Source of the DNA: Saccoglossus kowalevskii | Lineage: Eukaryota; Hemichordata; Enteropneusta; Harrimaniidae | Direction of reading: 5' to 3' | Assembly (NCBI RefSeq): GCF_000003605.2 | Contig: NW_003122440.1 | Span: 63,937-127,936 of the forward strand | DNA: 64,000 nucleotides | Position numbers and translations under genes: made by a program | The notes under the pieces: model-generated | Database searches by the model: none | The model's input: only the letters and a program-made list of their open reading frames with translations | Told to the model about the DNA's origin: nothing | Shown: piece after piece, positions 9,305 through 41,956 of the stretch | Numbering within the stretch: the stretch's first letter is position 1 | Layout of the letters: every line of letters begins with the position of its first letter

Positions 9305-10256
9305 GTCATAGCAACATTGCGCGTAACATTAAGTACGTAAACATAGATGAGTTCAATAATTAACGAGGGAATTTGTTGTTAGATGATGTGAACCATTCTG
9401 TTTGTACGGATAACAATCTTCTTACCGCAGGGAATCGTTTCAAGACTGTACGTTGAATAGATAACAAGGAATGGTCTCATGGATGATGAACCGGTTGATG
9501 TTCCAATTAACTAATTGATTTCGTGGAGTCCGTGAAGGTCGGTCGTCCTGTCTCAACAAGCGACAAATATTTCACTGGACTTGAAAAAATATGAATAACA
9601 ACTCATCCAAATATAAACACATAAACACGATCTCAGTTCGCAATTTGCACTTTATGAACAAAAATAAAACGAATGTTTAAACTAATATTTAATATAAGGT
9701 GAACTATGAATGAACATCACATAGCTAGAAGTGCAATGGTGTCAAGTGATTCGACCTTTCCTACATTATATACCTTTCATGTATTTGATTCATAGTTCAA
9801 TGCACATTATTGTTGACGCCGTCTGTGGATTGTTTAAATATTTCTTTAATTTCTGAACATTTCACAACTGTAGATGATTTATTCTTGCTGTGCATTTACT
9901 TTATGAACGAATCCATCATATCTAACATTGTACACTTATGTTTCACGATAATACTGTTATTCACATAAAATCCCTAACACTGCCTAAAAGTGCGTTTAGA
10001 TTCGATGAATTTTTGATTTAATATCACAACGCATCGATACAATTATGTGGACTGTTTCGGATTCTCATTTCATTGTTTGTTTGTTTGTTTTAATGTAACT
10101 TTTCAATAGTGTTACCCGGCGATTTGATTCTCAGAGAATTATTGTGTACTCCAAGTTATAATTCGACTATCCAAAATTCCGCTTTAGTAATTATCTCTGA
10201 GTACATTTTTACGATACTGGATGCATAATCCACTACATCAACGCCGATTATCGCTT

Positions 10257-10891
10257 NNNNNNNNNNNNNNNNNNNNNNNNNNNNNNNNNNNNNNNNNNNN
10301 NNNNNNNNNNNNNNNNNNNNNNNNNNNNNNNNNNNNNNNNNNNNNNNNNNNNNNNNNNNNNNNNNNNNNNNNNNNNNNNNNNNNNNNNNNNNNNNNNNNN
10401 NNNNNNNNNNNNNNNNNNNNNNNNNNNNNNNNNNNNNNNNNNNNNNNNNNNNNNNNNNNNNNNNNNNNNNNNNNNNNNNNNNNNNNNNNNNNNNNNNNNN
10501 NNNNNNNNNNNNNNNNNNNNNNNNNNNNNNNNNNNNNNNNNNNNNNNNNNNNNNNNNNNNNNNNNNNNNNNNNNNNNNNNNNNNNNNNNNNNNNNNNNNN
10601 NNNNNNNNNNNNNNNNNNNNNNNNNNNNNNNNNNNNNNNNNNNNNNNNNNNNNNNNNNNNNNNNNNNNNNNNNNNNNNNNNNNNNNNNNNNNNNNNNNNN
10701 NNNNNNNNNNNNNNNNNNNNNNNNNNNNNNNNNNNNNNNNNNNNNNNNNNNNNNNNNNNNNNNNNNNNNNNNNNNNNNNNNNNNNNNNNNNNNNNNNNNN
10801 NNNNNNNNNNNNNNNNNNNNNNNNNNNNNNNNNNNNNNNNNNNNNNNNNNNNNNNNNNNNNNNNNNNNNNNNNNNNNNNNNNNNNNNNNNN
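10257..10891. other. Assembly gap (635 N)
   Basis: A run of 635 undetermined bases. The real length may differ. It is large enough to hide an exon the size of the 447-nt signal-peptide exon seen at 53319-53765, and lies about 11.3 kb upstream of the first visible receptor exon. Confidence 0.99.
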
Positions 10892-18385: not shown

Positions 18386-18976
18386 TTTATTATCTTGTTT
18401 CCTGGTTCGTACCCACGGATTGATTATTTTGTTTCCTGGTTCGTACCCACGGATTGATTATCTTGTTTCCTGGTTCGTACCCACGGATTGATTATCTTGT
18501 TTCCTGGTTCGTACCCACGGATTGATTATCTTGTTTCCTGGTTCGTACCCACGGATTGATTATTTTGTTTCCTGGTTCGTACCCACGGATTGATTATCTT
18601 GTTTCCTGGTTCGTACCCACGGATTGATTATCTTGTTTCCTGGTTCGTACCCACGGATTGATTATCTTGTTTCCTGGTTCGTACCCACGGATTGATTATC
18701 TTGTTTCCTGGTTCGTACCCACGGATTGATTATCTTGTTTCCTGGTTCGTACCCACGGATTGATTATCTTGTTTCCTGGTTCGTACCCACGGATTGATTA
18801 TTTTGTTTCCTGGTTCGTACCCACGGATTGATTATTTTGTTTCCTGGTTCGTACCCACGGATTGATTATTTTGTTTCCTGGTTCGTACCCACGGATTGAT
18901 TATCTTGTTTCCTGGTTCGTACCCACGGATTGATTATCTTGTTTCCTGGTTCGTACCCACGGATTGATTATTTTGT
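18386..18976. repeat. 34-bp minisatellite, 17 full copies plus a partial copy
   Basis: The unit contains GTTTCCTGGTTCGTACCCAC followed by GGATTGATTATYTT. All copies except the first base-variant one at 18388 are identical apart from a single C/T position in TTAT(C/T)TTG. Reading copies in order, that position is C T C C C T C C C C C C T T T C C, then T in the partial copy. Such uniformity points to recent expansion or strong homogenisation, so copy number is likely to vary between individuals. Confidence 0.97.
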
Positions 18977-22182: not shown

Positions 22183-22763
22183 AACGTCCACCCGATGTAT
22201 CTTCGCTTAGAGTCGGCAGAGAGTTTCCAAGCGTACGCCATCAAAAAAATCCTTCATCGTAATGGGTGGTTCCAGTATTCCATTCTTGCAAGTGAAGAGA
22301 CGCCATCGCAGGCATTTCTACAGTACTTAACCAACGTCACCTCATCCCTGACATGGACAGTCAAAGGCACGGTTTTTTCTCGTGATAAACGTGACATAGA
22401 TCACGTGTTACACAGCGCTGCCAAAAGCAAAACGCGCGTTTTTGTGCTGCACGCGACGCCGGAATACTCGTCTTTATTGTTTCGAGCGGCGAAAGACTTC
22501 GGTTTATTGGACGCCGGCAATGTGTGGATAGTCGCAGAAACTGTTATAACAAACCAACCTCAGTATTTAAAACATTATCCAATTGGATTAATTGCTGTAC
22601 AGTTTGTAGACAGTGGTCATATAGAGTCAAAAATTCACGATTCCGTGGAATTAATTGCTAGGGCTTCCGTTAATAAAAACTATATTTCCAACATAGCGTC
22701 AAATAAGAGTTGTTGGTCTAAACCAACACCGGATAAATTAGAGTATGGCAGGGAATTCTATAG
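22183..22763 (+). CDS. GluN3-like receptor, exon 2: amino-terminal (LIVBP-like) domain
   Basis: The acceptor TTGCTTTTACAG precedes AAC at 22183 and the donor GTGAGT follows at 22764. The exon is 581 nt, enters in phase 0 and leaves in phase 2 (…TTC TAT AG). The product begins NVHPMYLRLESAESF, matching the segment after strand PVLS in GRIN3 (PFHLQL…). It contains a potential N-glycosylation site (NVT). The ATG at 22147 is not the start: it lies in the intron just upstream of the polypyrimidine tract. The phase-0 acceptor fits an upstream exon ending in phase 0, as the exon at 53319-53765 does. Confidence 0.9.
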
Positions 22764-25700
22764 GTGAGTATTTGAACAAGTTGCACACAATCTATGTATT
22801 GCATTTTCTACTAGCCATCTTGACAGAAATTTTGGTCCAGCATAAAAAGACCACCTACCTAATAAACCATACTAACCATGTTTAAATGTGTTTCATCGTG
22901 CAACAAATATGCGCACGTCATTATGTACCAGCGAGGTGGGATGGGGATGGAGTGGTGGTTGTATAAGTACCTCCGATTTTCATCTATAGAAGAGAGGAAA
23001 TTATCCGCCCACGCCCTATGCGTAAATGCAGAACCATGGCAAGGGAATGTATCTCTGTGTGTGAAAAGTGTGTTTTTTGTGTTTCTTATTTTGCATATAT
23101 TTTTTAGTCATTATTTATCAATATTGTTTTAGGGTAAATATTCAAAAGGAACTCAATTATTTCGTAATAATTCATCGGAGCCCTTTATTCCATATATACT
23201 TTATTCTTAACAAGTATATCAAGTTGAATGTCCACATATCTAAGATCATTGAATCATCTTCTGTGCATTGATTTGTTTACAGCGCCTTAGTACAAACGTC
23301 CTTTATGGGCCAAACAGGATATATTAATCTAGATGAAGAGGGAAACCTAAACAATGCAACCTACATAATATTAAATTTAGTCAAAGACCAAAACAGATTA
23401 TCCTACTGGAAAGAGTTGGGTAAATGGGAAAACGGCGACTTTTCAATGGAAGCAATTATCTGGCCTGGAAATTCAGTCAGTTTGCCAAACGGAGTTAATA
23501 CGGAGAAGGTATTGATAGTCGCCAACATAGAAAAGCCTTTTATTGTTGTGTCTACGCCGCTGGACGTCTCCTTTGACTGTTTGACCGGCGTGTTGTGTTT
23601 GCAGGCTGTCAACGGTACAAGGGAAGACATCGAGAAAGCATTCGCTGAATATGACGAACCGACCGTACATGGAAATTATACGGATATGAAACGTTGTTGC
23701 TCTGGGCTTGGCATTGATTTGATTGAGAGCTTACGTATCGACGTTGAATTTAATTATAATTTATATCTAGTGGCCGACGAGAACCATGGTGCTTTCGAAA
23801 ATGGACAGTGGAATGGTATGGTTGCTGACCTTTTAAACGGTACAGCTGACCTGGCCCTCAGCTCATTCAGTATTACGTCCGAGAGAAGCAGGGTTATTGA
23901 CTTCAGCAGCCCATTCTTCCACTCAGGGTTTTCTACATTGGTTGCCAAAAAACAAGTGGAGCCGCAATTGGATTCCTTTTTAGAGCCACTGGATTGGTCT
24001 GTATGGATCCTGGTATTCGTCACTGTAAACATAGTAGCTATTGCCATTACCATCTTCGAATGGATGAGCCCATACGGCTTGCACCCACGCGGTCGGAACC
24101 GACACTACACATTTGGACTTCCATCTGCGCTGAATATTGCGTTCTCTATTCTGTTCAGTCACACTGTGAAAAGTAAGCCACCAAAATGTATGACTAGTCG
24201 CTTTCTCCTCAATGTATGGGGAGCATTTTCATTCATCTTCTTTGCGAGTTACACAGCGAACTTAGCGGCTTACATGGCTGGCCAAACGTCACATTTGCAA
24301 ATAGATGGGATCAATGATGAGAAGGTAAGTCGTTTGCGCATATCAAGACGATCCCTAATTAGCATAATCGTACAGTGAATCCGGAAGTACGATAGTTGAT
24401 GGATTTGGTTACTATCGTTTACAGGTATTTAAAGTAATTCGTATTCTTTCTCGGGTTCACTTCAACTTTCCACTAAATTAGCAGTCTGAATGGCGTTAGG
24501 GTAATTCACGAATCGCGAATTAACGAGTCGGTGATGAATCACAAAGAATGCAATGACTTTTTTCCCATTTCTTTTCGATTCTCAAAAAATGTTTGCTTTT
24601 ATCTATACTTTTCAATAATCAGTTACTTTCTCTTTTATTGCCCGGATTGCGGATCTGCTACTCAAATCCTGAGCTGTTAATTTTTCAAATTATTTCTGTA
24701 TGTGGTCTGTATTTGCTACTAGGAATTAGTGCGTTCAAGCCATTGAGTACTTAAGTTTGAGTATACTCTATAACTTGCTACCATCACTAGGGTTAATCCG
24801 CGACATCACCGATGTACGCATATTTTTTATTACTTGGCCTAGAAGTGTTCTAGCCTTCATAGATTACATACTCACAGTTTAGTTCATTGTCATATACAAA
24901 AATGCTTTGATGTCAGTGCATGTTTTAACATCCTAGTTTACACAGTGAGCTTTAGCTTGACAGGGTAGAATTAAATTAATTAATAACATTATTGCTGAAC
25001 CAACTATTATATGATTTATGAAAGATAGTGAACTGAGATTGAATTTTCGGCAAATGTTAAAAGACCTCATACAATAAACATGCATTGTTTATACCATTTA
25101 CTGTAAATATTCTATGTTTAATTTGTGTATTAATTGAAATATAATTGAAATAATATCGGACAAAGTCCAACCTTAAAGCGTGCTAAATTATATATGCATG
25201 TCGTACAATGCGTGTACTCAACCTTATTCTTACACCGGCTCTACGTGACTGTGACTGTATGAATTTAACTTCCTTGTACATGCCATTCTTCGCTACCAGT
25301 ACATCTCACTCATGAAATGAAGCTAACGCAGTCACCTGGCAAGAGCGTGAACAAGTCCGCCATTTCGTTCACTGTTCAATCACCGTTTGCACTGTGCTAA
25401 CGGGAGTGACACCAGTTTCGTTCGCACATTATCACTTTATATAAATCAAAGTGATCTCTGGTAATCCCGTGATGATAAATGATGGTAAACTTGATGTTTT
25501 GCACTCAACTGGTCTTTATATGTAATTTATGAACGGCGAATTTTAAAGTTTATTTGCTTCCACTTCCGGACCAACACCATCGTCCGAATCGCACGGTTTA
25601 TTGGTGCCAGCTCCACCAACCCGTTCGGGATCAGCCTGGGAAAACACGTATATTATGTTAAACAAATGGCCAAGTTTGATTGGATGCGCCTGTTGGAAAG

Positions 25701-28700
25701 GCGCCAAATTAGACGCTGTGTATCATTGACCGGTAAGCTAAAGAACAAAATGTCGGAAATGGCGACTTCAAAATTCTTCTAGTAACCGTGCGTGTAGAGT
25801 GTGTTAAGGTTGTTTGCCAACCCCAAAACCGGCGCCGCAATTTTTCACGCAGTTTTTCACAATTTTGGATGCCAACGTTGCAGTGGCATACTTCGTCAGC
25901 AACGTGACAAATATTTATGTCGACCATGTTTTAACAAAGTATGAAACTGTCAACACCGAAACACTGTCAAAGAAAATCTCAGAAACTCTACTGGACTGAT
26001 CATTCAAAGGTTGAATTGTTGCTCAGTTTTCGTGATTTACTACAACGTTTTCCAGCTACTACTGTCTCAAATACATGGTTTTTTATCTTGAAAAACTGCC
26101 TGATCTGTTCAAACTTGGGTCGCCTTTTAAAAAAAACACCGCTCTACTGTATTTTGATACATGATAGCTAATTGGCTGTTTATTTTTGTCGCATCTCCCC
26201 TGCTTGTCGTTAAGGGCGCTTATTAAATACATACTGTAGTGGATCAACACACGCTGGCCAAGTGAATGAATCGTTGGTTTTACAGTGAGGGATTTATATA
26301 GCGGCACACTAATCCGGACAAAATAATTAGTGTGAACATATAGGATCAAATCTTGGATAAACATATCATTTAAAAAAGCCTGACAGTTCAAGCACAAGAG
26401 CGTTAAAACAATATTCATTGCATTATTTGTGGGCCAATATTCGTCACCAATTCGTGATTACCTAACCCGTTTGAATGTGGCATCACTAATAGATTGATAG
26501 TTCTCAAAGCAAGATTTCGTGTTTAATCAGCGTCAGTATAGCATTGTTCATTGGCGCAGGGTTGCTCTCGAAATCTTAATGGTTTCTCGTTTAGACAACT
26601 TCTTCGCAATATTGTGCTTCTTATAGTCTGGAACAGCAAATAAGGTTGATAAAGTTTTCTATTCCCCTCTATTAGTAGAGATCGTATAGCTGTAGCGTTT
26701 TCTTACAGCTTAACATCACTTGTAACCGAAGTTATGATACGTTCCACAGAAGAATAGCCATTCATCGAACATCTTTACTATTAAGCTGCTACTTACATTG
26801 CGGCCATTCATTTTCAGTTTTTCAATACAGATTACCTAAGTGGGTATTCTGTTGATTTATAACGTGTGGTGGCATCGGTATAAATTTGTACGCGATCTAT
26901 TTCCTTGCATTTATTTGTAAGACAGTGTCAGTACATATTGAAGCATGTCTTACACATCGGTAGCATACTCTCTTAATCAACATTTGACCCACTGTGTATA
27001 GTTCCAGTATCCGTTAAGAAAGGGCATCAAATTTGCAACCCAGAATGGTTCCAGCTGCGAGAACTACATAATGGAGAACTGGCCTGACGTGGGCAGGTTT
27101 ATGGAACCATTTAACGTGGAGGACGCAGATCAGGCTATAGAGCATATTAAGTGAGTGCTGTATCCTGAATAATTTATTGGGTAACTTTGCTGGGGGCTGA
27201 ATGATGTTATTATCATCATTTGACCTCCAGCAGCGCTTGAGGAATATCCCTGTGACAAGATGATATTCGTTTGCCCATTTGCTGAGCGTTTCCACTTTAT
27301 CAATTCTGTCCTGGTTTGTTTCAATTTAGGATGAATATCTCCAAATTGATATTAGCGATTTTTCCACACTTATATATATGTGTGTGAGCGAAAACGTATA
27401 TCAATTGCTGAAAACAAATAAATCCCGGCGAATTTTTACAGTGGGAACTTCAGTCAACGCACATCTCCCGCTACCTCCCTGTCAATATCGTTACTTCTCA
27501 CCAAAGCTTGTTTTGTTGTACTTTATTGTCATGGCAACTCGAAGGTTCATTCCCCAGATGGTTCACTGACGATCGGCACAGTAACGGGTAGTAGTATTCA
27601 AGTGTACCTAACTCGAAATCACCCAAAGCTGGCGAAATTCATGGACAACTACATTCAGGACTGCACCGAGGAAGCTATGGCGAAATTGAAGTGAGTAAAT
27701 GCACACTCGAGGGACACATTTTCGCGAATTCGGGAAATGGGTCGGTATTAACATTGACAATTCTTTAAAGCTCTTCCAATGCAGGACATTGAAATGAAAG
27801 TAGCTAAAGCACTGTATGTAATTGAGATGCAAATAGGACGTTCATTTCTGAGAATGTGATCGTGTGGTCGATTGGTGGCATTCCAATTCCGCCCCTCTAG
27901 TAAGTCACTTTAGTCTAACTAATGCCTTTGTCATTAAAAACACATAACCTCCCTATAACTTGCGTACCGTCAAATTTAATCACGTTCTCTAAAGTTACAA
28001 TATTGCAAATCAAACTAATACTCTAATGTATACAATCATATCCTTCTTATCCTTGTATATGACCACTCTTGCATTGGGAGAGCGCCACAAAGAATGGGTT
28101 GATATTGATACTGTTAAAATTGTCCAGGACCTCTCACTGAAGACTATGCTTTACCACCCTGTCGTTACGTAATACCTTATCTTCAGTCTGTCTAGGGTAG
28201 GCTCCCTCGTTTACATAGAGGTTGCCTTGACTGGTAGTGACGGTTTTGTTACTCCCCATGTGTTTTCATGTCATAGGGCGTTACCTAGACAGGGTCGTAA
28301 AACTGAAGTCTACGCATGCATAGTGGCGGTTCGCGGCAACAAAACTGGACAATTGTTACCCAAATCCTGAATCGAGAAATGGAAATAATAAGAGTGTGCA
28401 CTACTTCATTTCATTATTGCCACGTGTCTGGCAATCGTAAACGTTGCATGAACTTCGCATGATCCTGGATATGTGGACGTCGTCTGCTCGTTGTTCAAGA
28501 TGGCGTATATTATGGCTGCTGACACCTTTAAAAAACATTCAATAAGCAGACTTTATTTCTCAACTAACTTGTATATAACGGTTCTTCTTTTTATGCGTTT
28601 TCCTCCTTGATATGGCAATATTCACTAACCTTTTTGGAGATATGTGTTGAAACCACGTTTTCGTTGTGTATATGTGTTAATTTATGCTTAGGTAAAACTA

Positions 28701-31700
28701 AGTCGTCTCTGTACGTTTAATGTTTGAAATGTCCTTTCCTTGCACTATATGCTCAAACCTTATTTTGTTCCTTCAATAATTTTGCTTCAGGCATGGCTAT
28801 AATGTATTATTTCTTAATGCTTATTAACTTTTTTACAAAATAATAGCGAAATATACTGATGTTACTTTTATTTTTTTCTTAAGGGTATTCCACAGTTCAA
28901 GTATTATCTGTGGATCCTTGGCACTTTGGCACTTTGGCACTCTTTGAAATATGCGTGAAAAAATCATATCTTTATTTAGTTACAATTCTATTGATGATAA
29001 TTTTCATTTAATTCACAAAATACACCTACATGAACCATTGTTATAAACATGATTTTGGAAACAAGCAATGCAATGCATTGTGGTATACATAATGGTAGAG
29101 TTCAAAGTGACATTGATGAAAGGGAAGGACAGTTGTTACTTTTGCTGTGTAAACCATAATGCTTTTTATTTTTTCCTTCTCTTGGTCTTCATGACAACTT
29201 ACTCTTTATAGTTATCACTTTTGTCACCAATGATGTTATTTTTTTCTGCAATATCCGACAGTTGCCTATGAATACCCTGGCGCTAACAACTCATACACTT
29301 TATTAAAAGAGTTGATTTGTATTTTTTCCCTTCCACTGTCGTTTGGACATATAACACTGTTAGTGCTGACATGCGCATTGCAGGGATTCAATTTTCTGAA
29401 CTACATTAATTCTGTAAATGCTTAACCATATCTTTCTCTTTAAATTGATTTTTAAAATTGTGCTAATGATCTTAAGGAGTGGAAAATTAGACGCATTTAT
29501 ATACGATTCGCCTGTGATTGAATACCGTATGGCTAACGATCCTGAGTGCCAGCTAGTTAGTGTTGGTAAACCATTTGGAGAAGAAGGCTATGGTATTGGA
29601 CTTCCAAAAGGTGAGATTGAATATAATATATACCAAGAGTCACTCACAGTCCTTCGTCAGCTTATCTTTTAAGTCCTAGTTGTGGGTGATTCATATGAGT
29701 TATATGTACTGAGCTTCTTGTGAAAAAATCTCAGTTCTACAACAACTATATGAGATATTCTTGGTGTGTTGATCGCCATTTTGTTTATCTTTTTGTCTAA
29801 CATGGCAATCTAACGCAAACATACTGGACAGTTTTCAAATGCTTTAATTTAATATATTCCAATACAATTCCAAGTTTCAATGAAATTCAGTTAAAGAGGC
29901 TTTGATTTTTCTGCTTCATACTTAGATCATACTTAGTGATGTTATTTGAAATGTAAAATCTTCTATGTGTCTATAAATTTTACATGCAAACAGGACTTTG
30001 TTGAAAAGTTATGGAAAGTTAAAAATAGTATCCAGAAAGGCTTCACAATACATCACAAATGAATGTAATAGTGGCATTATTGTTTATATATAGTAAACCA
30101 TGCGAACTATTGATTGTGAAAACCTCATACATGGTGTATCTGGTGGGCAAATCAAAAGTATAAAATTAATGTCACCGTAAAAAGAAATACTGAATGCGAA
30201 GTGAATTTTCCAGCGTGGACGTGAATTGATATTTGACTAATAGAGCGTTTTCGGTGACAATAATTCAATGATGTTAATGATTGTATTTTTTTAGATTAAA
30301 CATTTCCTAGAACCCACTTTCTTTGTTTAGCTTTTAAAGTTTGTCAATGGTCATTGATTTAATCGTATTATTATGTAAATTATTATGTGTTGTTTTGACC
30401 GGATTGGTGTCTTAACTAAAACAATATTGAAGTCGTCTGCGAACATTCAACCTACTAAATAGTGGCAAAAATGTTACCTCAAAACTAGTCATTAACTTGT
30501 TTTTAAGTGGGAAATACTATTTATTCTATAGAATTCATCTTAAAGTTTTTTTCATAAAACAAAATAGTATTCATCATAGTTTTTTAATAATCGTGACAAT
30601 AAGTACTCGCCTTATAATTTTAAATTATGAATTATTAACAAACTGAATGGCTCAAAATTTGATGTTGATTCGGTGATACTATTGTCTTTGTGAGCAACAA
30701 CATAAAAAATATTAAACCAAATTGTAAAAATCAAGATTATTGCTTATTTTCTGAAAAGCTTTATATTTATTATTGTCAGGTCTTTTTTGCAATCGTAGGA
30801 ATTTCGTTTTTTTTTCGTGTGGTGGTCCAAGCCTAACTGTGAGAACATTGTTTATTTGTATAATCTTTTCTAGTTCTCTGCCACAAAACGAAGGTTCGTA
30901 GACTTTAACTAATGCAATTTTTTTTCTGCAATTGTAATGTACTCAACACATTCAGCATTCAGATACACCCACTGAATAATTATAAATACTTTTAATATAA
31001 ATAAATTGGTCTCAAAACCTATGTTAATGTAACTTGATTATAATGGAAGGTATAGTAGCATCGATAAATATGTTCTGTGATGGAATAGAAAGGCATTTAT
31101 TATCTACATTGTTCAAACCAAATCTAAACCCTGGATGCACCTTATATCTGTAGGTCAACAATGCTATTAACTAATTAATCACATAACACCACGGAATTCG
31201 GCTGTACACACGAATACGTAACGTTAATTATTACTTATCGCCAAGTAATTTTTGATCATATCTGTGTTTTTTCATATTTGTGTTTTGTAGAATTATATCA
31301 TCACTACATTGGGCATATTGTTATTATAAGTTGGCAAAATACAAATTACGAACAATATCCTCTGCAAGATAATAACTTCACGCACAGCACAACACCTGTA
31401 CATTCATGCTCACGTCACCACAGTCACAAACACTAAGTTTAGAAAATAGTATCTACATCTTGTCTTGAATACTGATCAAACAATCCAATTAAAAAAAAAC
31501 ATTTCAGGATGTTATTTAATAGGTATATCACATATCATATAATATATCTATTTTAAGAAATGTTCAAGACATTCATACGGAAACAAATCATTTTACTGAG
31601 TTTACTGAGGCTCTGATTTAGCTATTTAGCAATTCCACGTTCCGTCACTCTGGCTGACCTGTGCGTCTGTGTTACATGGGTGACTACCTCCTACTGTCAA

Positions 31701-34700
31701 GCAATTGAACCAGTACATCGTTTACTTTATTACATGGTCGATGGTTTAACCCCTGTTACACAGGGTCACACTTGAAACGCCCAGTGAATAGATATATTTT
31801 GACCAGGGAGACAGAACTCGGATTTGATAAGACATATCTGAATTCACAACTAGGACATCAGCTCGCCATCCAGTTGTATTGACTAGTGATAGATGCGTGA
31901 GGGAATCAACTTCGAAAAGTTGCTAGTATTGTCTTGGTGCAACTAAGAATAATGCTATTATGGTATAAAACGACAAAGTAACATGGCCTTGTAATATATG
32001 TAAACGTCATCCTTTCTTTATACATTATTGTATAAGCACAATGTGATATGTGTATGTAGTTTTGTTTTTGCAAACAATTCATTTGAATGACAATATATTT
32101 GAGAATTTGGATATCAGTGAACATTTACTGCCAACTGTTCATACAATTATCTTCTAGGATAGTATGAAAAAGTTGATATTATTCAAATAAAATAACAAAT
32201 TCGTCTGCGTTTTCTTGCAATGTCATATTCCTTTCCTTGTCACTTTTAATTATCTAACAGTAATAGTCATTTAAAATATTCTCTTTTTCAATTCTTGTTT
32301 CCTCTTACAAATTCTAACTTTTTTCAAGGACAAACTCTTCTTGGAAACCTTTCTGAGTAAAAATGAAAAATCACGATGTTGAATAAATGTGCATCTATGT
32401 CAAAGACAACCTCCCTGGTTTACAACTTTTTCAGTTATCCTACTTACAGTACACAGACAGACACACGAAAAATCTACACCGACTAAAACTTAAGCTCCTT
32501 CAATTAATGTAATGTACAAAACGCGTATGCTATAAAAAATTCCAAATAACATGATGAGTGGGTGCCACTATGGTCTCCATGATATATTCAAGTCAGCTTG
32601 TTTGAAAACCTTTTCGTCATTTTAATATATTTGTCAATTATAATTATTATCTGAGGTTGAAAAATAATTTGAGTGAATGATTTGTTTTCAAACAATAATA
32701 ACGACTCAACCTATAATACTCCAATTGTACTAAAAGCTTTTTAGTGTTTGTAATAATACAGAGAGTTTATATGACTTGCAGGTCGATAACTACCAGATAA
32801 CTAAACAAGGCTAGGGTAATATTGTTGTGGCAATTTTTGAACATTGGGAAATATATTATTATTATGCTATTTTAATGAACAAGGAGAATGATGAAAAGTA
32901 TGAAGATAATTAGATACATATTTCAACACTGATCAGCAACCTTTTATATAAGTTGTGTTTTCTATTCATAGTCAGTAGTACACTAAATCGAAGTGCAGAA
33001 TAAACAAACATTGTGTTTTTAAAAAAAATTAAATTTACTTTGAGAAATGTGTAAATCCTCATGATCATCTTTGTGCTTGTGCGTGGTATGTGGAGCAATA
33101 AATACGCAAAGCATTTTCGTGGAGATAATTTACATCACTCGTTCGTGTATAGGACGTCGCATTTGTTTACATTTTCCGCTCATGTGTAGTGACTGGTGGG
33201 TAAAGGCCTGACGTGCGCACCCAAACTTTCCAACCGATTCCAAGTCTTGGGGGATACACCTTTAGATGACATCAACATTCTATGTGACAGGATACAGAAG
33301 ACATTTTCTGACACTGAACAGGAGGTGCTTGGTTACAGAAGAAAGGAAAGGAAAGGAAAGAGTGGATCTCAGAGAACACTTTGGAGCTCATAAAGGAAAG
33401 AAAAGTAGTGAAACAACAAACGCTAAGAGAAAAGGAAGAAAAAAGACGCATACCGTGTTTCGAACACTACTGTGAAAAAGAGTGCTAGAAAAGACAAGAG
33501 AGAATTTATGGAGAAATTAGCAACAGACGCGCAAGAAGCAGCAAAAAGACACCAAGACAGTGTACAAGATCAGCAAGACTTTCAGGGGTGGCTTTGCTAA
33601 TAGAACAACAGTAGTAAAAGACAAGAATGGGAAAGTGCTGATGACAGAAGAGGAAAAGCTAAACACATGGGCAGAATACTTCAGAGACATACTGAACAGA
33701 CCCGACTCAGAAGAAGTGGCAGATATTAAAAGAACTGGCTACAGCATAGAAATGAAACGTGGAAACATCACAGAACAAGAGATAAAGAAGGCTATTCAAC
33801 AGACAAAGGGAAATCGGGCCCCTGGAGAAGATGAAATCACTGCAGACATGCTGAAGGAAGACCCCATCACCAGTGCCAGAGCCTTAAAAGAACTTGTCAA
33901 CAAAGTATGGGAATTGGAAAAGGTTCCTGGAGCCTGAAAAAGAGGAATTATTGTTAAACTACCCAAGAAAGTCTTATCAGTCTGCAGCAACTGGGGAATA
34001 AACCTACTTTCGGTGTCAGGAAAGATCTTGTGTCGTGTACTGATACAGAGACTACGACAAGGTATTGAGTGGATCCTAGCAGGCAGGCAGGCTTCAGAGC
34101 TGGAAGGGGATGTATTGACCAGATCTTCCTCCTGCGTACCATAGTCGAGCAGTTCCTTGTGTGGAACTCATCATTATACATCAACTACATCGACTTATTA
34201 TTCGACAGCATCCACCACCCATCATTATGGGAAATCCTTGAGGCTTATGGCTTCCCAAGGACATGCGAACAACCAGTGCTGTGTAAATCATGATGGACAG
34301 CAACATAATTGTTCCATTTGAAGACAGGAGTCAGACAGGGCTGTATGATATCACCCACCCTCTTTCTTATCATCATTGACTCGGTAATGAGGAAGGCCAC
34401 CAGTGACAAGCAACGAGGACTTGGGACTGACCACCAGACTGGAGGAATGTGACTTTGCCCATAACATTGCCCTTCTCTCCCAGAAGGACATCCAGGAAAA
34501 GACAGATAAAGTGGACAAAACAGCAAAGAGTGTGGGACTCAAGATCCACCAAAACAAGACCAAGATAATGAAAATGAAGAACAGAAGTACAGCCAAAACC
34601 AGTGTCTGTGGCACAATTCGCTGGGAACAGCATGCCACCAACTTAGAAGTCTACAGGCGCACCTGCATCAATAACATCACAGCTGAGGTGAAGCAGAGAC

Positions 34701-37700
34701 GCTGGAGATGGCTGGGGCATGTGCTAAAGATGGGCAGAACCAGACACCATCACGCTGCATTAAGATGGACAACACCTTGGAAGAGAAAGAGCGGCGGAGT
34801 TCCTGGATAAGGATTGTGGAAGATGAGTTGAAGGCAGCAGGGAGGACCTGGAATGAAATAGGATGGCTTACGCAGGACAGTGACGGCTGGAGGAGATTTG
34901 CGCCTTATGCTCCACCGGAGCGAAGAGGAGTAACTAACTATCATCTACACAACATGGATATTCATTTCACGTCCCGCCCTGTATTATATTACACCTTACA
35001 CCTTAAATGTTCCGAATACGTCGTGTTATCTCCCCCCCCCCGGGCACTTACTTTAGTACAGTAAAAATTGTATATTATTATTAAACTGCTGTATTTTTTG
35101 CGTGTGTATTTTTAATAACATATAGTTGTGGATCAAGTTATGTTTCTATTCTTGTGCGTACCCTTTTACCTTGCTAATCGTTTACCTATAGTGTCAAGTG
35201 TATATGTAAACCGCATCAATATTTAGAGATTGTTATTTCTCCATTTATAGCAGGAGTCAGAATATTTCAGTGGACAATGTCACCAACTGATTCCGTCCAC
35301 CATGTCTCGCATACTGTATCGTGGAAAATCTTTTTGAATATTATTCATTGCATCAAACATTTCACATAAATACTCGAGAAGTCATATTGTATTCTTTATA
35401 TATCGAATATGAACTTGATTGATTCTTTATATTCAGTTTACATTACGTAAGTTAAAGAAAAAACAAAGATTATCAATAAAGTTGACTATTTTAAACAATT
35501 CAATAAATTTACTCGATTCACTGTAGAAGCTATTTTTAGAGGCTTCGATAATAATATCAGGACAAATCGATTTCGTGTATCTTTAAAAAATACTGACAAC
35601 AATCAATAGATTTTAGAAAGCATATTACAATATCATCAAACAACCGTATTAAACAAATGGTCATCCGATGTGAGCTCCTCTATCAAGTTCAGCTAACACT
35701 CTAACCAGGTGCTCCTCAATCATTTGGGATTGTTCTTTGCACTAAAGGGTGTGGGAATGCTGTTAAAACGGAACAAAAATAAACATCACAATTCAGCAAT
35801 CGTGTGATATTACCAATCGAGAGTATTTGTTAGCAGATATAAGACCTTTCTGGGAAAAATATACCAGGAGTTGTACCCGAGCGTAAGTGAGGTTTTTAGT
35901 TCAATATAAGCAAATCTTTCCCAGAGACGTTTTATATACGCAACTGAATACCAGGGCGTACCGTTTATAACCTACATATAACTTGCCCGCATACGTAATA
36001 CGCCACAAAATAGTTGTTTATATCACACTGCTATGCGTGAATTTGGAATTCTACCAACATCATTTCTATGGAAACGGTTCTGAAGCACCAGAAGATTTTA
36101 AAATAATTTAATTATGTTGTTAATTAGAATAATTAGGTGGGAAAGCGGTTGGGAGGGTCTTACTCAAGACTAAACCGCTACTAAATGTGTTTTTTAGCTT
36201 CATTGTCACCGAAGGTGATTGTCTGTCATCCTCTGTCGTCCATCGTCCACCAACAATTGCATCTTCAGTTCTCTATTTTTAGCCATTATTTTCATTTCTG
36301 GTTAATATGATATTTTCGACTTCTTCTTTAAAACTACCAGCTCAACTGCTTCGATACATGGTATGTAGTTTGGGTGGACTTCTGACATATTTGTTCATTT
36401 CGTGACGATATCTTCAATTTTCTAACTTTAGCGAATATTTTTATCATTTCTAGTAAAAGATGATATTTTCGACATCTTTCTAAATACTGCCAACCGGATA
36501 GTGTTGATATGTTATGTGTGGGTAACTTTGGTGAACCTGTATCAGTCGTGGTCATATCGTGACCATTTAGTTATGAGTGATAAGATAAACATATGGGTTG
36601 AGACAATTATAATGTAAACAAAGCCAGAGTAAAAGTAATTTGTTTTTCCCCTTATTGGTGTTTATGTAACTATGCATTAATGCAAGACTATGCTGTAACA
36701 GAGTACTTGTAAATTTGAGTACTTGTACTTTCTAGGTATACCCCGCTGTGTGTAGATCATTTATCATAACAAACATGACCACACAATACATGCAAATTAA
36801 ATAGTTCATACTTCCACTTTCTTTAATGCGTCGGCCACACTTTTATTTTTTTCCTCAAGGTTCCACCATGAAAGAGCCTTTGTCATTACACATACTAGAA
36901 TACGAAACGGATGGTTATTTGGAAGAATTGCAACAGAAATGGTTTGGGACAATGATATGCTACAAAGAGGGCGACCTCGGTTCAAGTGACATTGGAGATA
37001 ACAAGGTCCGATTGGCACATGTAGCAGGTAAGCAGTACATATTTACCTACATGATTATGTTAAGATGCAACAACTTCTACTAATTAGATTGTTTACATGA
37101 TTGTTTTTGCGATTACATTGCGCAACTGATATTCGCAAATACCTCACTTGGCACACCACAGTGTGACAAGCTTCAGTTGTGCTTCTAATCTGTGTTTCTT
37201 CTTCAAATACCTGTACCTTCGTTTGCGTTGTATATGTATGTGATTATAAGCGGTCACACCACCGCAGTAATTCTACACACCATACTAACGATAGCAGAGA
37301 AGATTTTCGACTTCTCTTTTGCTACACTTTGAAACAGGTACATAAATAGACAGAACTAAACTCTAGAATAGATTATTACCTTCACTCTCCGATTCCTCAT
37401 AGGGTTGTTTATAATGCTGCTGTTTGGAATTGGCGTCGGAGGTATGATTCTTCTTCTGGAATACATCATGTATAACTACGCAGTTCCTCGCCTACATTCT
37501 CAACCCGACAAAAGGAATTGGCTCGTATTAAGTCAGGTAATTATACTACACCATTCCCACAAATTGTGCCCCCTGCGACTAATCCCTTCTGTGACGTCAA
37601 TACGACGTTTATGGGTGGCGACAATGTTGTTTAAATCTACATATGTTTGGTTGTGCAGTCGTTAGTCATCTAGAATATAGTGAAATATATCAAAAATCTT

Positions 37701-40700
37701 TATGACGCTGTCACTAGAGGGCGCTATTAGTTGGAGAGACATAGTACATACTGCCTCGTAGAAAAAAAGTATTTCATTATTTTATGTGTAGTTTGCCACT
37801 AAATGCCTGGTTTGCTCGTTTAAAAATGCGACACACTTTAGCTTGTAACAGAGGAAACCAATTGTGTGCATAATCGATTAGACGCCAGGGAGTCCATGGA
37901 GAAACAAGAGTGTGACAAAGATTGCTACGTTGTGGGTGTTCATTGGAACGCGCACTTTCTCTAGATCGCAAAAGTTTTGTAATAAGAAGAATAAACAAAT
38001 ATTTATTATTTAGCTGTATTGAACTTTCTAATTTGACATTGTGTTTGCATAATTTTAAAAGAGATTATATATTCAGTTATTCAAACAATGCTACGATAAT
38101 ATCTTCTCCTATATCCAAGCAGCCTTCACGTGCACACATTACCACATTTGCGTGCACAATAACTGATAGGAGTGTAGTAATATAGAATAAGTGATTAGAA
38201 AATGTTTTATTAAACGGATAATGTGGTCATAATTGCGCATATGCGAGTTTGTTTCAGTATCTGATGTATACGCAGTTGTCAAACGTAATATGACATACAA
38301 GCAATAATCCTGACTAATGTTCCTGTTTGGTGGGACTCACCGCACGCATGCGCAGTTATATATGGTGGTACTATTCTATGAGAAACCGGTCGTCTTGCCT
38401 TGTAGTGTTTTAATTAGCCACGTTTTACCCGACAGCGCTTGCACAGAGCGGTGAATACAGAAGATTTGGTTTCATCTAAGGCTAATATGCAAGAAATGAT
38501 CACCATGGTTAAGAAGGGACAATTCACTAAGATGTTTCAGAGAGAACAACTCAGAAGAAAGTCTGTAAGTATAGTTTGTTATATAGATACAGATTTGTTG
38601 TTGAATGTATAATAATCACCAAATAGATTTACTGCAGACACTGCATTGACGGTGGTAGGTTGTACACCTAACGTTTGGTTGATGTTGTTTGTTTATTCTC
38701 AGTCACGACGATCCATGCAAGACATGGATATAACTTACCAAGGTCACACAGTAGTAGATTTTAGAAGTGACGTAAGTGGTGTATTCAACACACAATGAAT
38801 TACGCATGCCACGACCTAACTTTCTCATTGGCAGATTCGATTACAGATGTGACTCACATTTGGCACTTCACTTCTTATCAGTATTTTGCTCCGATCGACT
38901 GGATTCTCCAAAACTATGCAGACCATTTACAGGTTCTAGTGCCATGCAAGCATGTCATCAAATTTGCCATACTTTTTGTTATAATCAATATAATTCGCCG
39001 GGTAATCTTGGATAATAATGCAAATGCTGATACACAATAGTGATTAAGCATAATACTAAGGGCGCTAGCGAGTCGTTGACTCTTCTCTTGCAGCGCCAAG
39101 CAACATAACAGAACGCGTCAAAATATTCATTTGGTGATTGAGTGGCGCCTTCGTTCGTGCACACATTTTAAGTGTTCGTTTCATAGGGCAGTGTATCATG
39201 ACGCATAAAGACACATTACACAAAACAATGTTTGATTTGAATTTGAATGAATGTAAGTTATAATAGGTCGAAAAAGATGAATACGAGATTAGTGATGATT
39301 TTCAGACACTTATCTTTGAAAGTTTTATTTTACGCAGAAAGCCGTCATAAGTAAATGGTAAAGATATTCCTGGTGAACGCAATTTCACATCGGGTACTCA
39401 TTGATCGAGAATTAAATTAGTGCCTAAAAAGGCTTCCTCCACATCACAGATTGAGTCAATTTCTTATTAGTGTCGCCACTGTAAACTATAATGCCCTTTC
39501 CACTCCTCCTACGCGACTAAAACGTCCGACCAGCAGAATCACTGCAATCCCGTTCAATGAATTCATGGTGAGAGTCTATTTTGTAGACGCTGCAAGAGAG
39601 AGTCAACTGCTGGCTTTGCCTGGCAGTATGGCGTATACCAGCAACTGTATTGCCGATGTTGTTTATCGAAAACATGGGAATATTAACGGTTTATGTAAAC
39701 ATATTAATGCTGGCAATCGTGGTGAAACTGTTAGCCCTGGGTAATGTACTAGGGCATATAAGGAATAACATTAATATATGGTGATTAGTTATAGTAATGG
39801 TGATTAATTATTCAAATAATGCAACATCATGTTCTGGGAACCTTGAATCAAAACACATACTTTTCAATATTGACATGTTGGATTACGTGTAATATTATGC
39901 TGTGATAACCTTGCGTGTTTTAATTTATTAAGTTAGTATACCATTGACGGTAACCAAATTCAGAAGGTCGGTAGGTGGTGCGTTATCCGTGGCTTCAAAT
40001 GCATAAAGTTGCCAGTAATTGTTGAGCACCGATCAGTTTGGCTCCCTGAACGTAAATCGTTATACAAGGAAATTTGTTTACAAGATTTCAGAGTATATGT
40101 GCATTATTTACGATTTACCGTGTGGTGTATGGGAATTTCGCTGATAAATACAAATCTCTAGCTCTAAATTCAAATAAGTGCATTAACTCATTCACAAGGG
40201 CGTAAGGATCATTGCACGTTTTCCATCATCAATTTTCAATTCTCCTTAAAAATAAAAATAGCGCATTAATTTACCTATTAACTGCTTCTAGGTTATATTT
40301 GTATTCTAAATAACAACCTGCATTGATTCTAAGAGAATAAAGTGTAAACCACATTACGCCTATGAATATGTTATTGGATAATAAAGTTTATTCTTTTTTG
40401 AAACCTATTTTCCAATTTCAGATGATGCGAAGAGAGTCGAACATGGAAATGGGATCAGATGCAAATTTAAAGGATCTCATTGATTCTGTTGCATGGTAAG
40501 AAATTCCACTGAAAATATATACTATAAATAAACTATTACTATATACTGTACAATACTTTCTTACTGCTTGGCATGAGATGAAATTTCATTGGAAACCTTT
40601 ACAATTAACTTGAAGTTTTGAAGTTAGATAAAATGAATTGCATGACATGGCGATCTTTATTATCATATGCATTAAACACAGGTTCCCCGTGGATTTTTCT

Positions 40701-41956
40701 AAGTGATGTTGACATATAATATAAGGTTATGACAGTTAGATCACATACTTACAAATCCATATCCATTATCTCAAGGACGCTTTTCAGTTGTATGCGTTGC
40801 ATACTTGTACACAATACGTTGAATAGACTGGCGTGTATTCTTCTATTCCACTTAACAATGCCACTGTATTTGCCAACTTGTCACGTTTGCCAATTAGTCA
40901 TATCCATTTTTCTCAGATTTTCGTGAAATATTTCATTCCATTTATATCTGCACGACATTTTATAATGTTGAGAAACAACTGAACTATGAATTGAATGAAT
41001 TTTGGGGTCATTAATTGGGTATTGATGCTGTTAAAGCATGTGTAGTAATACTTTATTTATTTGTCATTCCAAGGGTAAAAAATGACAGCAAGAGGCCCAG
41101 CCTTCAAGAGGAGAGTAACCATGGTAACGGATTTAATAGAGCGAAGGAGAAAGAGATGGAAGCTAGGCAGGATTCCAGGAAAGCTTCTTTCCATTGTTAC
41201 CGACCAAATCGTCTGCCAGACATTCCTAGCGACAGTGACACGTCCTACGACAATTTACAACGATTTTCACCATCGGGAGAGTTGGTAAGGTTTTCTCCAC
41301 ACGGCGATGTAATCAGTCAATCTCCGTCAGACTCAATGAATGAATTAGAACAATTGGAAAACACAAGGTGGGATGAGCATGAGCAAGATAGCTTTCTCAG
41401 TTTGAACTCTAATCCAGGGGAAGATGACAACGTATGTTATCCCAGTTTAGGTAATCCTGAAAGTCATGAACAATCTGACAGTTTTGATAGAAGGTACCGT
41501 CCACGTTGTTTAAGTTCGGAAAATAGTAACGTTCATCCGGAGCAGTATCTTGGAGCCCACGGTATTCTAAATAGGTATAATGGACAAACTAAATTTGGGT
41601 CGTGGACAGAAGATGAGGATGAGGAGGATGAGGATGAAGAAGACCATGAACCGAGTGAAACACACCCAATGATGATGGAAGATAACCTGCCAAGATACAG
41701 TCAGTTGTTAACAAATCAGCGTGATTATGCAAATAGTTCTTTTAAAAACCCTCAGTTTGGCGAAGATTATTCAAACAGATATGACCCTTACGACCCAGTT
41801 CTATTTGACCCAAGGCAACTGTCGAAGGAAGAACTTGTAGTGAAGTGGCGACACTCTCAACGAGAACTAACGAAGCGCCTCGGTAAAGCTCTGAGCGAAA
41901 AGGCCAAACTGGAAATGCGGGTGTCTGAATTACAATCTCAGCTGGACGACAGGTGA
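22183..41956 (+). CDS. GluN3 (GRIN3)-like NMDA-type ionotropic glutamate receptor subunit, 5'-incomplete, spliced
   Basis: Encodes a ligand-gated cation-channel subunit of the plasma membrane. Joined exons 22183-22763, 23283-24324, one of 27008-27150 or 27545-27690, 29477-29610, 36860-37027, 37403-37536, 38436-38564, 38703-38771, 40422-40495 and 41074-41956 keep phase throughout and give about 1,118 residues without the missing signal-peptide exon. The order is amino-terminal domain, S1, M1, M2 pore loop, M3 (SYTANLAAY), S2, M4, cytoplasmic tail. Assignment to GluN3 rests on the pore-region KPPKC, the GRNR after M1, KPFGEEGYGIGLP in S2, LSQRLHRAVNT after M4 and a C-terminal coiled coil, all close to vertebrate GRIN3 as I recall them. 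Unusual points are the duplicated S2 exon, Ser-His in the pore, and a pocket with His and Tyr at positions where GluN2 has them. The first exon is outside the window or in the gap. The intron with the LINE is 7.2 kb. Confidence 0.93.
23283..24324 (+). CDS. GluN3-like receptor, exon 3: end of amino-terminal domain, S1, M1, M2 pore loop, M3
   Basis: The acceptor TTGTTTACAG and donor GTAAGT bracket 1,042 nt entering in phase 2 and leaving in phase 0. Order: TSFMGQTGYINL (end of the amino-terminal domain); the S1 cysteine pair CLTGVLC; KRCCSGLGIDL; then ENHGAFENGQW and SITSERSRVIDF, which carry the agonist-contacting His (23785-23787) and carboxylate-binding Arg (23884-23886). M1 is WSVWILVFVTVNIVAIAITI. 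M2 contains NIAFSILFSHTVKSKPPKC, with Ser (24157-24159) and His (24160-24162) at the selectivity-filter N and N+1 positions. M3 ends SYTANLAAYMAGQ, the intact gating motif. The third cysteine of the usual CCxGxC is Gly here. Open throughout with no defect. Confidence 0.95.
24325..27007 (+). other. Intron between M3 exon and S2 cassette exons
   Basis: 2.7 kb of AT-rich sequence with GTAAGT donor and a GTTCCAG acceptor. An open frame at about 25814-25999 looks weakly like an S2 segment but lacks usable splice sites (see rejected items). No transposon recognised. Confidence 0.8.
27008..27150 (+). CDS. GluN3-like receptor, exon 4a: S2 lower-lobe segment, cassette version A
   Basis: The acceptor GTGTATAGTTCCAG precedes TAT at 27008; the donor is AA|GTGAGT at 27151. 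The exon is 143 nt, phase 0 in and phase 2 out. The product YPLRKGIKFATQNGSSCENY (first 20 residues) aligns with the GRIN3 segment [21 protein letters not shown]. The Ser-Ser pair at 27050-27055 corresponds to residues that contact the agonist alpha-carboxyl in NMDA receptors. The strand before it reads FATQ rather than the family's FGTV. The helix part reads PDVGRFMEPFNVEDADQAIE. This is the first of two duplicated alternatives. Confidence 0.88.
27151..27544 (+). other. 394-nt intron separating the two S2 cassette exons
   Basis: Donor GTGAGT at 27151 and acceptor ACTCGAAG ending at 27544, preceded by a pyrimidine-rich run (TTGTTTTGTTGTACTTTATT, about 27508-27527). The length would allow steric or RNA-structure control of exclusive splicing, but I identified no clear docking-site pairing by eye. 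Confidence 0.75.
27545..27690 (+). CDS. GluN3-like receptor, exon 4b: S2 lower-lobe segment, cassette version B
   Basis: The acceptor CTCGAAG precedes GTT at 27545; the donor AA|GTGAGT is at 27691, the same hexamer as in version A. The exon is 146 nt (one codon longer than A), also phase 0 in and phase 2 out. The product starts VHSPDGSLTIGTVTGSSIQV and continues YLTRNHPKLAKFMDNYIQDC. It aligns without internal gaps to version A at about 11 of 48 positions (T, GSS, Y, N, P, FM, A, K) and keeps the agonist-contacting Ser-Ser (27590-27595). Its IGTV strand is closer to the family consensus than version A. If A and B were joined in one mRNA the frame would shift to a TGA at 27567-27569. Confidence 0.82.
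27691..29476 (+). other. Intron after the S2 cassette exons
   Basis: 1.8 kb with donor GTGAGT and acceptor GATCTTAAG. No coding segment recognised. A 128-bp inverted-repeat element lies at 28181-28308, and a short GGCACTTT repeat at about 28919-28942. Confidence 0.8.
28181..28308. mobile_element. Short inverted-repeat element (possible MITE)
   Basis: CTTCAG (28181-28186) and CTGTCTAGG (28188-28196) on the left are mirrored by CCTAGACAG (28284-28292) and CTGAAG (28303-28308) on the right. The right arm has ten extra bases between the two blocks. The element is 128 bp with no coding capacity. No clear target duplication is visible, so its transposon nature is a guess. Confidence 0.35.
29477..29610 (+). 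CDS. GluN3-like receptor, exon 5: S2 segment with the ligand aspartate
   Basis: The acceptor GATCTTAAG and donor GTGAGA bracket 134 nt entering in phase 2 (the AA of either cassette exon plus G makes Lys) and leaving in phase 1. The product SGKLDAFIYDSPVIEY carries the Asp that binds the agonist amino group (29505-29507), preceded by Tyr (29502-29504). Vertebrate GluN3A has Met, GluN1 Trp and GluN2 Tyr at this preceding position. DPECQLVSVGKPFGEEGYGI follows, with one cysteine of the conserved S2 disulfide. The open frame runs on into the intron to 29672, but the next exon fits only from the donor at 29611. Confidence 0.93.
33195..34945 (+). mobile_element. Decayed, 5'-truncated LINE (non-LTR retrotransposon) with reverse transcriptase
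   Basis: Conceptual fragments match one well-known invertebrate LINE reverse-transcriptase family. In order: NRFQVLGDT … QEVLGYRRKERK (linker after the endonuclease), KKSARKDKREFMEKLATDAQ, FANRTTVVKDKNGKVLMTEE and YFRDILNRPDSEEVADI (thumb-proximal region), IIVKLPKK, QAGFRAGRGCIDQIFLLRTI, YINYID, TGVRQGCMISPTLFLIIIDS, and the terminal RRWRWLGHVLKMGRTR … LRWTTPWKRK. The frame changes several times and contains stops. The catalytic box corresponding to FADD reads FAHN, and a long segment after KTKIMKMKN is missing. It is therefore dead. The endonuclease domain is absent, consistent with 5' truncation. The clade (RTE- or CR1-like) is not settled. It lies in sense orientation inside the receptor gene's large intron. 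Confidence 0.9.
36225..36575. repeat. Dispersed repeat with two diverged tandem monomers (about 150 bp)
   Basis: After a GTCTGTCATCCTCTGTCGTC lead-in, the block around TTCATTTCTGGTTAATATGA followed by TATTTTCGACTTC (about 36290-36325) recurs as TATCATTTCTAGTAAAAGAT followed by GATATTTTCGACATC (about 36439-36475). The surrounding sequence is also similar. A further partial copy lies near 44365-44465 (CATATTTGTACATTTTGTGA there versus CATATTTGTTCATTTCGTGA here). The element family is not named. Confidence 0.55.
36860..37027 (+). CDS. GluN3-like receptor, exon 6: end of S2 and pre-M4 linker
   Basis: The acceptor TTTTTTCCTCAAG and donor GTAAGC bracket 168 nt, phase 1 in and phase 1 out. The product GSTMKEPLSLHILEYETDGY then LEELQQKWFGTMICYKEGDL corresponds to GRIN3 SPLTANISELISQYKSHGF … DKWYRVVPCGK. 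The second cysteine of the S2 disulfide (MIC) is kept. This is the position of AMPA-receptor flip/flop exons, but only one copy is seen here. Confidence 0.93.
37403..37536 (+). CDS. GluN3-like receptor, exon 7: M4 transmembrane helix
   Basis: The acceptor GATTCCTCATAG and donor GTAATT bracket 134 nt, phase 1 in and phase 0 out. The product GLFIMLLFGIGVGGMILLLE is the M4 helix, followed by YIMYNYAVPRLHSQPDKRNW, close to the GRIN3 segment after M4 (EHIVYRLLLPRIKNK). Confidence 0.93.
38436..38564 (+). CDS. GluN3-like receptor, exon 8: membrane-proximal C-tail
   Basis: The acceptor CGTTTTACCCGACAG and donor GTAAGT bracket 129 nt, phase 0 on both sides. The product starts RLHRAVNTEDLVSSK, matching the conserved SQRLHRA(I/L)NT of GRIN3, and ends FQREQLRRKS, a basic patch. 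Being symmetric, the exon could be skipped without frame change. Confidence 0.88.
38703..38771 (+). CDS. GluN3-like receptor, exon 9: short C-tail exon
   Basis: The acceptor TTTGTTTATTCTCAG and donor GTAAGT bracket 69 nt (23 codons), phase 0 on both sides. The product is SRRSMQDMDITYQGHTVVDF then RSD. RRKS/SRRS across the junction is a basophilic-kinase-like context. There is no recognisable homology; support comes from splice sites, phase and position. Confidence 0.7.
38772..40421 (+). other. Intron in the C-tail region
   Basis: 1.65 kb with GTAAGT donor and TTTCCAATTTCAG acceptor. A 97-codon open frame at 39451-39744 has no flanking phase-compatible splice sites that I could defend and no family match. 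Nothing else seen. Confidence 0.65.
40422..40495 (+). CDS. GluN3-like receptor, exon 10: C-tail exon
   Basis: The acceptor CCAATTTCAG and donor TG|GTAAGA bracket 74 nt, phase 0 in and phase 2 out. The product is MMRRESNMEMGSDANLKDLI then DSVA. It is joined to the next exon through a Trp codon (TG plus G). No homology; supported by splice sites and phase. Confidence 0.72.
41074..41956 (+). CDS. GluN3-like receptor, last exon: acidic tract and C-terminal coiled coil
   Basis: The acceptor TTTGTCATTCCAAG precedes G at 41074; the frame stays open for 293 codons to TGA at 41954-41956. The exon encodes a polar, probably disordered cytoplasmic tail with an acidic run (EDEDEEDEDEED), then LSKEELVVKWRHSQREL followed by TKRLGKALSEKAKLEMRVSE and LQSQLDDR, a predicted coiled coil. 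Vertebrate GRIN3 also ends in a short coiled-coil-like helix. The ATG at 41015 lies in intron sequence and is not a start. The frame after the stop stays open for 25 more codons with helix-like composition (see findings). Confidence 0.88.

Follow-up and report, generated by a model that had tools for sequence, protein, structure and literature searches.

Adjacent, diverged S2 exons with the layout of a mutually exclusive pair in a GluN3-like NMDA receptor gene of Saccoglossus kowalevskii

Organization of the receptor locus

The window, that is the whole 64-kb stretch of DNA analysed in this work, corresponds to positions 63937-127936 of contig 1515 in a genome of 572 Mb in 4830 contigs. Its plus strand carries an NMDA-type receptor gene, in which the exons for the ATD, S2, M4 and C-tail are arranged in order around the S1-M3 exon. 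The gene model starts at the second part of the ATD (22183..22763, ends set by eye), which matches Pfam ANF_receptor (5.3e-13) and the NMDA-receptor ATDs of the PDB (best 3.3e-9). The following exon (23283..24324) encodes the end of the ATD, S1 and M1-M3 with SYTANLAAYM; it matches Pfam Lig_chan, has GluN3A as its best PDB match, and terminates in GINDEK with the donor AAG/GTAAGT in phase 0. Between this exon and the next S2 exon lie two alternative exons on the same strand, A (27008..27150, 143 nt) with the S2 segment YPLRKGIKFATQNGSSCENYIMENWPDVGRFMEPFNVEDADQAIEHI(K) and B (27545..27690, 146 nt) with the S2 segment VHSPDGSLTIGTVTGSSIQVYLTRNHPKLAKFMDNYIQDCTEEAMAKL(K), which are separated by an intron of 394 nt. 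The common S2 exon after them (KSGKLDAFIYDSPVIEY..., 29477..29610) is entered in phase 2 and contains the agonist-binding Asp. A second common exon (36860..37027), recognized by its open frame and homology, provides the end of S2, and the M4 exon lies at 37403..37536; the frame is open through M4 with either A or B. The probable first exon of the C-tail (RLHRAVNT..., 38436..38560) was fitted to the frame by hand and its 3' end is uncertain, since 38560 fits the next frame with a weak donor and 38564 is the stronger-looking site, and one C-tail junction after M4 is accordingly given as tentative in the model. The last coding exon (41074..41956, stop at 41954-41956) encodes a long C-tail, the terminus of which contains a coiled-coil-like stretch as judged by eye.

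Other features of the window are few. The list of open reading frames contains fragments at 33521-35064, within the intron separating the two common S2 exons, which we take to be reverse-transcriptase-like. Minisatellites are present at 47445-48884 (39-nt unit, 38 copies) and at 18382-18976 (34-nt unit, 17.5 copies, 98% matches), and a run of N at about 10250-10890 appears as X in the open reading frames. The Rfam (gathering threshold) and tRNA scans of the 64-kb window gave no matches. When relatives were searched among collections of genome and viral contigs, pattern matches occurred at 10 and 2 stretches, respectively, and none was confirmed, as is expected for an animal gene.

Receptor class

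In S1-M3 and S2, the gene is a GluN3-like NMDA receptor subunit by sequence similarity. The S1-M3 exon matched GluN3A of the PDB with 269.6 bits vs 183.4 bits for GluN2A. With exon A, the S2 lobe also preferred GluN3A (73.0 bits, E 2.1e-19) to GluN2D (63.0 bits), and with exon B the preference was the same by a narrow margin (65.1 bits, E 5.5e-17, vs 63.4 bits). On the other hand, NR2A was the top match of the ATD exon (3.3e-9), followed by GluN1 and GluN2B, all with low scores, and GluN3 was absent from the best 60 of its 138 PDB matches; the subunit is therefore called GluN3-like and not a proven GluN3. The equivalents of Ser631, Ser633 and Arg638 are retained in the S1-M3 exon and the Asp is retained in the common S2 exon. 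The position of Tyr605 is occupied by His, the GluN2 type, and the agonist-binding Asp is preceded by Tyr, a residue shared with GluN2D in the PDB alignment. Pfam searches with exons A and B alone returned no family at a threshold of E 1, and the Lig_chan score of the M1-S2 stretch did not distinguish the two forms (86.4 bits with A, 87.0 bits with B).

Exons A and B and their reading frames

The preliminary description of this DNA had claimed two adjacent, diverged exons for the same S2 segment, each with an acceptor, a GTGAGT donor, entry in phase 0 and exit in phase 2. All of this was reproduced from the sequence. A and B agree at 11 of 48 aligned residues, and B has one codon more than A; an AG directly precedes and a GTGAGT directly follows each exon, and both lengths are 2 mod 3. 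The Ser-Ser that was said to contact the agonist in both copies aligns with Ser800-Ser801 of GluN3A in the PDB alignments for A as well as for B. The claim that only the use of a single exon keeps the reading frame also held. With A only or B only, no stop interrupts the frame in the next exon or further downstream up to and including M4 (540 and 541 aa, respectively, counted from 23284), whereas joining A to B leads to a TGA at 27567-27569 and skipping both leads to a TGA at 29519-29521, both positions being confirmed from the translations. A and B thus share the features by which mutually exclusive exons are recognized, namely adjacency, homology, similar length, equal phase and splice sites of their own, and both joint inclusion and joint skipping are unproductive.

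Two mechanical causes of exclusion were considered and rejected. Steric exclusion was rejected given the 394-nt intron between A and B, and a U2/U12 conflict was rejected by eye, the introns being GT-AG with GTGAGT donors. The lack of an obvious steric reason in an intron of this length counts against an exclusive pair; exclusion of the two exons would depend on the frame together with decay, or on regulation.

Homology and coding constraint

The global BLOSUM62 score of A against B is 52.5 vs -8.4 ± 7.0 for shuffled sequences (z 8.7), and none of the 5000 shuffles reached it. Twelve other AG-ORF-GT intervals of like length and phase, taken from 11,694 nt of the introns of the gene, scored 6 at most. 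At codon positions 1, 2 and 3, A and B are identical in 23, 26 and 12 of 48 codons, while the means after shuffling of codon order were 13.3, 13.2 and 12.2; of 10000 such shuffles, 13, 0 and 5772, respectively, gave counts as high as those observed. Positions 1 and 2 differ from position 3 in this codon alignment with a Fisher p of 0.004. Thus, third positions are saturated and those that set the amino acid are not, which indicates an old duplication with both copies under selection at the protein level. Moreover, the first Ser of the 11 identical residues is encoded by TCC in A and by AGT in B, which cannot be interconverted in one step. The divergence of A from B (11/48 identities) is about equal to the divergence of each from vertebrate GluN3A (13/47 for A and 14/48 for B). 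Codon usage agrees with a coding status, more strongly for A than for B: the scores were 12.9 bits for A and 8.4 bits for B, vs -7.8 ± 6.0 bits in open intron windows, and of 619 such overlapping windows none reached the score of A and 12 reached that of B.

An artefact of assembly was ruled out, as no near-identical second A or B was found in the genome. In searches of the 572-Mb genome, exon A found only itself (one match at E ≤ 10) and exon B found itself and one weak place at E 1.5; these searches missed the S2 exon of the paralogue described below, so they exclude near-identical and not diverged copies.

The pattern of constraint also bears on the possibility that the exon duplication left only one copy in use and that the other, B (or A), is a relic in decay. 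Decay would strike all codon positions alike, but positions 1 and 2 have been kept and position 3 is at the chance level, which makes a relic unlikely. Furthermore, exon B has a fully open frame, the right phases and a high-scoring donor, and it retains NMDA-like residues despite having diverged from A as far as from GluN3A. A recent loss of use would leave no mark yet, and two further observations given in the following sections, on the acceptor of B and on the paralogous loci, suit this reading. Overall, we consider a relic to be quite improbable.

Splice sites and a predicted duplex at the donor of exon B

Splice sites were scored with a rough matrix. With this matrix, the acceptor of B (27545) scored 1.2 and ranked 75th among 212 AG sites, and the acceptor of A scored 4.7 and ranked 30th. 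A competing acceptor 13 nt inside B (first base 27558, plus strand) scored 7.2 and ranked 10th; its use would give MVH-stop. The low score of the B acceptor and its stop-producing competitor are in line with a relic and count against an exclusive pair, as does the codon score of B that was matched by 12 of 619 windows. However, a low acceptor score is no proof of disuse because the constitutive acceptor at 29477 scored lower still (-0.1 with the same rough matrix). The donors of B and A ranked second and fourth, respectively, among 323 GT sites.

Comparison of splice-site windows with the introns of the gene pointed to an imperfect duplex of 31 nt, in which the 5' arm (27678..27708) lies over the B donor and the 3' arm (28392..28422) lies in the intron downstream of B, both on the plus strand. 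The computed energy of the duplex is -34.7 kcal/mol, and a fold of 956 nt assigns a probability of at least 0.93 to 21 of its 31 in-register pairs. The score of the B donor against the downstream intron was 42.5 vs 26.2 ± 2.9 after shuffling, and was reached by none of 100 shuffles; the other 11 of the 12 comparisons stayed at the chance level (23 to 97 of 100 shuffles reached the score). In real sequence, 12 of 2823 windows attained the duplex score with the tandem-repeat region set aside, and 32 of 2993 did so with this region included, the site of the duplex itself being counted. In the genome search, the 101 nt surrounding the intronic arm had no match but that stretch itself, so this arm lacks the appearance of a dispersed repeat. 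As 12 comparisons were made, a long-range duplex acting over the B donor as a control element is regarded as suggestive only. The predicted duplex may keep B repressed as the default state, or it may be a substrate of editing, as at the R/G site of AMPA receptors. Nothing in the 12 comparisons of splice-site windows with introns pointed to a docker/selector system for A and B together.

These features of B would also fit an arrangement in which both exons are recognized and B is mainly a switch for unproductive splicing, which would control the amount of the receptor and not its type. Joint inclusion would lead to the TGA at 27567, the acceptor at 27558 would lead to MVH-stop, and the stable predicted duplex covers the B donor. 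Nevertheless, a pure poison exon needs no constraint at the protein level on residues of the ligand-binding lobe, and we regard this reading as very improbable. Roles of B in receptor type and receptor amount could coexist.

Other NMDA-like loci of the genome

A search of the genome with PF00060 gave 22 matches. The nearest paralogue is a tandem one on the same strand of the same contig, with S1-M3 at C1515:185793-186839 (43% identical). Its S2 segment is encoded by one exon, which spans 188752-188897 (146 nt) when the first acceptor is taken and could otherwise measure 137 or 128 nt, with the same exit phase as A and B, and no second S2-like candidate with similarity was found in the intron of this paralogue at E 0.5. 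Parts of this second NMDA-like gene occur in the window at 53250-53831 on the plus strand and at C1515:184914-190435 (L014 and L015). The former part begins like a signal peptide, as judged by eye, and matches ANF_receptor weakly (E 0.0014, under the curated cut-off); we infer that it is the first exon of the second gene. The ATD, S1-M3, S2 and M4 exons of that gene lie about 57-62 kb past the end of the window, and its S2 segment has SSP vs SSC and SSI in A and B.

Eleven further regions were compared at E 0.05, with classes assigned by tblastn only; at this threshold, and at the E 0.5 used for the paralogue, a second copy may escape notice if it is very diverged. Four of the regions contained one NMDA-type S2 exon each (C1210 at about 412.9 kb, C1210 at about 492 kb, C3744, and C1550, which is GluN1-like); four others (L022, L027, L028, L031) gave S2-like matches of unassigned class, and three (L025, L029, L030) gave no S2-like match at E 0.05. 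By this tblastn classing, a pair of the A/B type occurs in one of six NMDA-like loci compared. That the other five give no second case counts against an exclusive pair, and the single exon of the examined paralogous loci would also be expected if B were a relic. The NMDA-like loci on contigs C1210 and C3744 lie at C1210:409000-417500, 488000-496000 and 707000-715500 and at C3744:11000-18000. The three places matched by PF00060 on contig C1210, in two of which S2 exons were read, together with C3744, possibly reflect a lineage expansion of NMDA-like loci. In an exon tree of six sequences (A, B, the second gene, GluN3A, GluN2D and GluN1), supports were 0.57-0.79 and A and B were not grouped; with such weak supports, the tree does not order the duplications, and the pair may have been gained here or lost elsewhere.

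That B forms part of a different transcript, or of an incomplete gene copy that entered the intron, is extremely improbable: the second NMDA-like gene on the same strand (C1515:185793-186839) indicates that local duplication has occurred, and its S2 exon scores higher against B (53.0) than against A (41.5), but the phases of B fit the flanking exons of the host gene, and in the comparison of seven gene-region pieces with the window only A and B matched each other.

The agonist pocket

A and B differ at 37 of the 48 aligned residues of the S2 segment. After Ser-Ser, A continues with Cys and B with Ile; this position is aligned with Ala802 of GluN3A and with Thr of GluN2D in the PDB alignments, and the same pocket position in GluN1 is Val689 by count. 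In the region of Ser-Ser, the start of the pocket helix, A has SSCENY vs SSAEDY in GluN3A, and B has SSIQVY vs SSVDIY in GluN1. Two residues of the pocket are numbered 653 and 655 according to GluA2, and the residue after Ser-Ser occupies one of these selectivity positions. It was reported that these residues set the ligand class, Gly with Thr being found for glutamate and Ser with a non-polar residue for glycine (PMC6307864). Ser-Ser-Cys in A and Ser-Ser-Ile in B both follow the glycine type, as does Ser800-Ser801-Ala802 of GluN3A. Because both forms keep the glycine-type Ser at 653, tuning of the response to one ligand is expected and not a change of ligand class; a shift from glycine to glutamate between the forms is not what the sequence predicts. 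As the two other pocket positions noted above (His and Tyr) look GluN2-like, the prediction of the ligand is tentative.

Interpretation

The anatomy, frame logic, homology and coding constraint of A and B are best explained by a GluN3-like gene with anciently duplicated S2 exons that are now mutually exclusive, so that one or the other is spliced, and we hold this explanation to be highly probable. We hypothesize that an ancient tandem duplication affected the exon encoding the first half of the S2 lobe, and that the M3 exon would be joined to the common exon at 29477 through either A or B, possibly under tissue control. Transcripts with both exons or with neither would contain a premature stop and would then be removed. 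Two subunit forms would result, in which the lower lobe differs around Ser-Ser, with no change to the channel, the upper lobe, the C-tail or the Asp that binds the agonist. The most likely functional effect would be a tuning of glycine or D-serine potency, of lobe closure and of desensitisation, and perhaps of surface delivery.

The preliminary description had likewise inferred two receptor forms, with possible differences in agonist affinity, selectivity or gating. This inference is partly supported, by the constrained coding copies, the matching phases, the frame that is kept by one exon at a time, and the location of the S2 site away from flip/flop. It is also refined, in that the subunit is GluN3-like and the residue that changes, from Cys to Ile, can be named. 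In a more far-reaching proposal, the gene would yield two excitatory glycine-receptor subunits whose lower lobes differ in shape, one with the GluN3A-like start of the pocket helix (A) and one with the GluN1-like start (B), gated by the duplex that hides the B donor, and the sensitivity to glycine could be readjusted through RNA folding or editing; taken as a whole, this proposal is rather improbable.

Comparison with known systems

Among the closest known systems is flip/flop of the AMPA receptors GRIA1-4, where mutually exclusive homologous exons encode part of S2 (PMC8257547). A and B are likewise homologous S2 exons of an iGluR in an arrangement predicted to serve exclusive use. The flip/flop exons have 115 nt (38 aa with 8-10 differences) and map to the last part of S2, where the dimer interface and the S2-M4 linker are, whereas A and B have 143 and 146 nt, lie right after M3, differ at 37 of 48 positions and belong to an NMDA-class gene; they are thus not a 115-nt pair before M4 in an AMPA gene.

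The splice variants of NMDA receptor subunits whose sites are given are placed differently. Exon 5 and the C-tail cassettes of GluN1 are outside S2. GluN3A-long of rodents has 20 additional aa in the C-tail, again outside S2, while human GRIN3A is described as having no relevant alternative splicing and isoforms of GluN3B are mentioned, the site of their difference not being given in the available portions of these sources (PMC8257547; PMC12005412). A and B differ from the GluN1 and GluN3A-long variants by their position inside S2. A survey of bilaterian iGluRs mentions splice variants of Grin1 and Grin2, and the term "mutually exclusive" is absent from its text (PMC5225553). No S2 exon switch in an NMDA-class gene was found in the literature as represented by titles and abstract openings among the matches listed, a scope outside which subscription papers and database isoform annotations fall. 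Judged by its sequence, the S2 exon pair is probably real.

In GluA2-4, the R/G editing site lies 2 nt before the donor in the LBD, it is accompanied by a complementary intronic sequence, and editing is linked to splicing (PMC8257547). In the present gene, it is the donor of B, one of two alternative exons, that falls within the predicted duplex. Clusters of mutually exclusive exons in general consist of adjacent similar exons of equal phase, and in 377 of 629 human clusters a length that is not a multiple of three makes joining unproductive; the frame-shift is the commonest of the three causes counted, and joining reads were present in only 83 of the 377 clusters (PMC5740500). Compared with such clusters, the A/B pair is set apart by its target, the ligand-binding lobe of an NMDA-class receptor, and by only 23% of residues in common. 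In mammals, the glycine site of GluN3 influences gating as well as surface delivery (PMC6707325). Provided that the animal makes both forms, splicing and not a second gene would alter the lower agonist-binding lobe of this NMDA-class receptor, and the pair would provide a natural domain-swap on the pocket of a GluN3-like receptor. It would then represent a second splicing hot spot in the ligand-binding lobe of iGluRs besides flip/flop.
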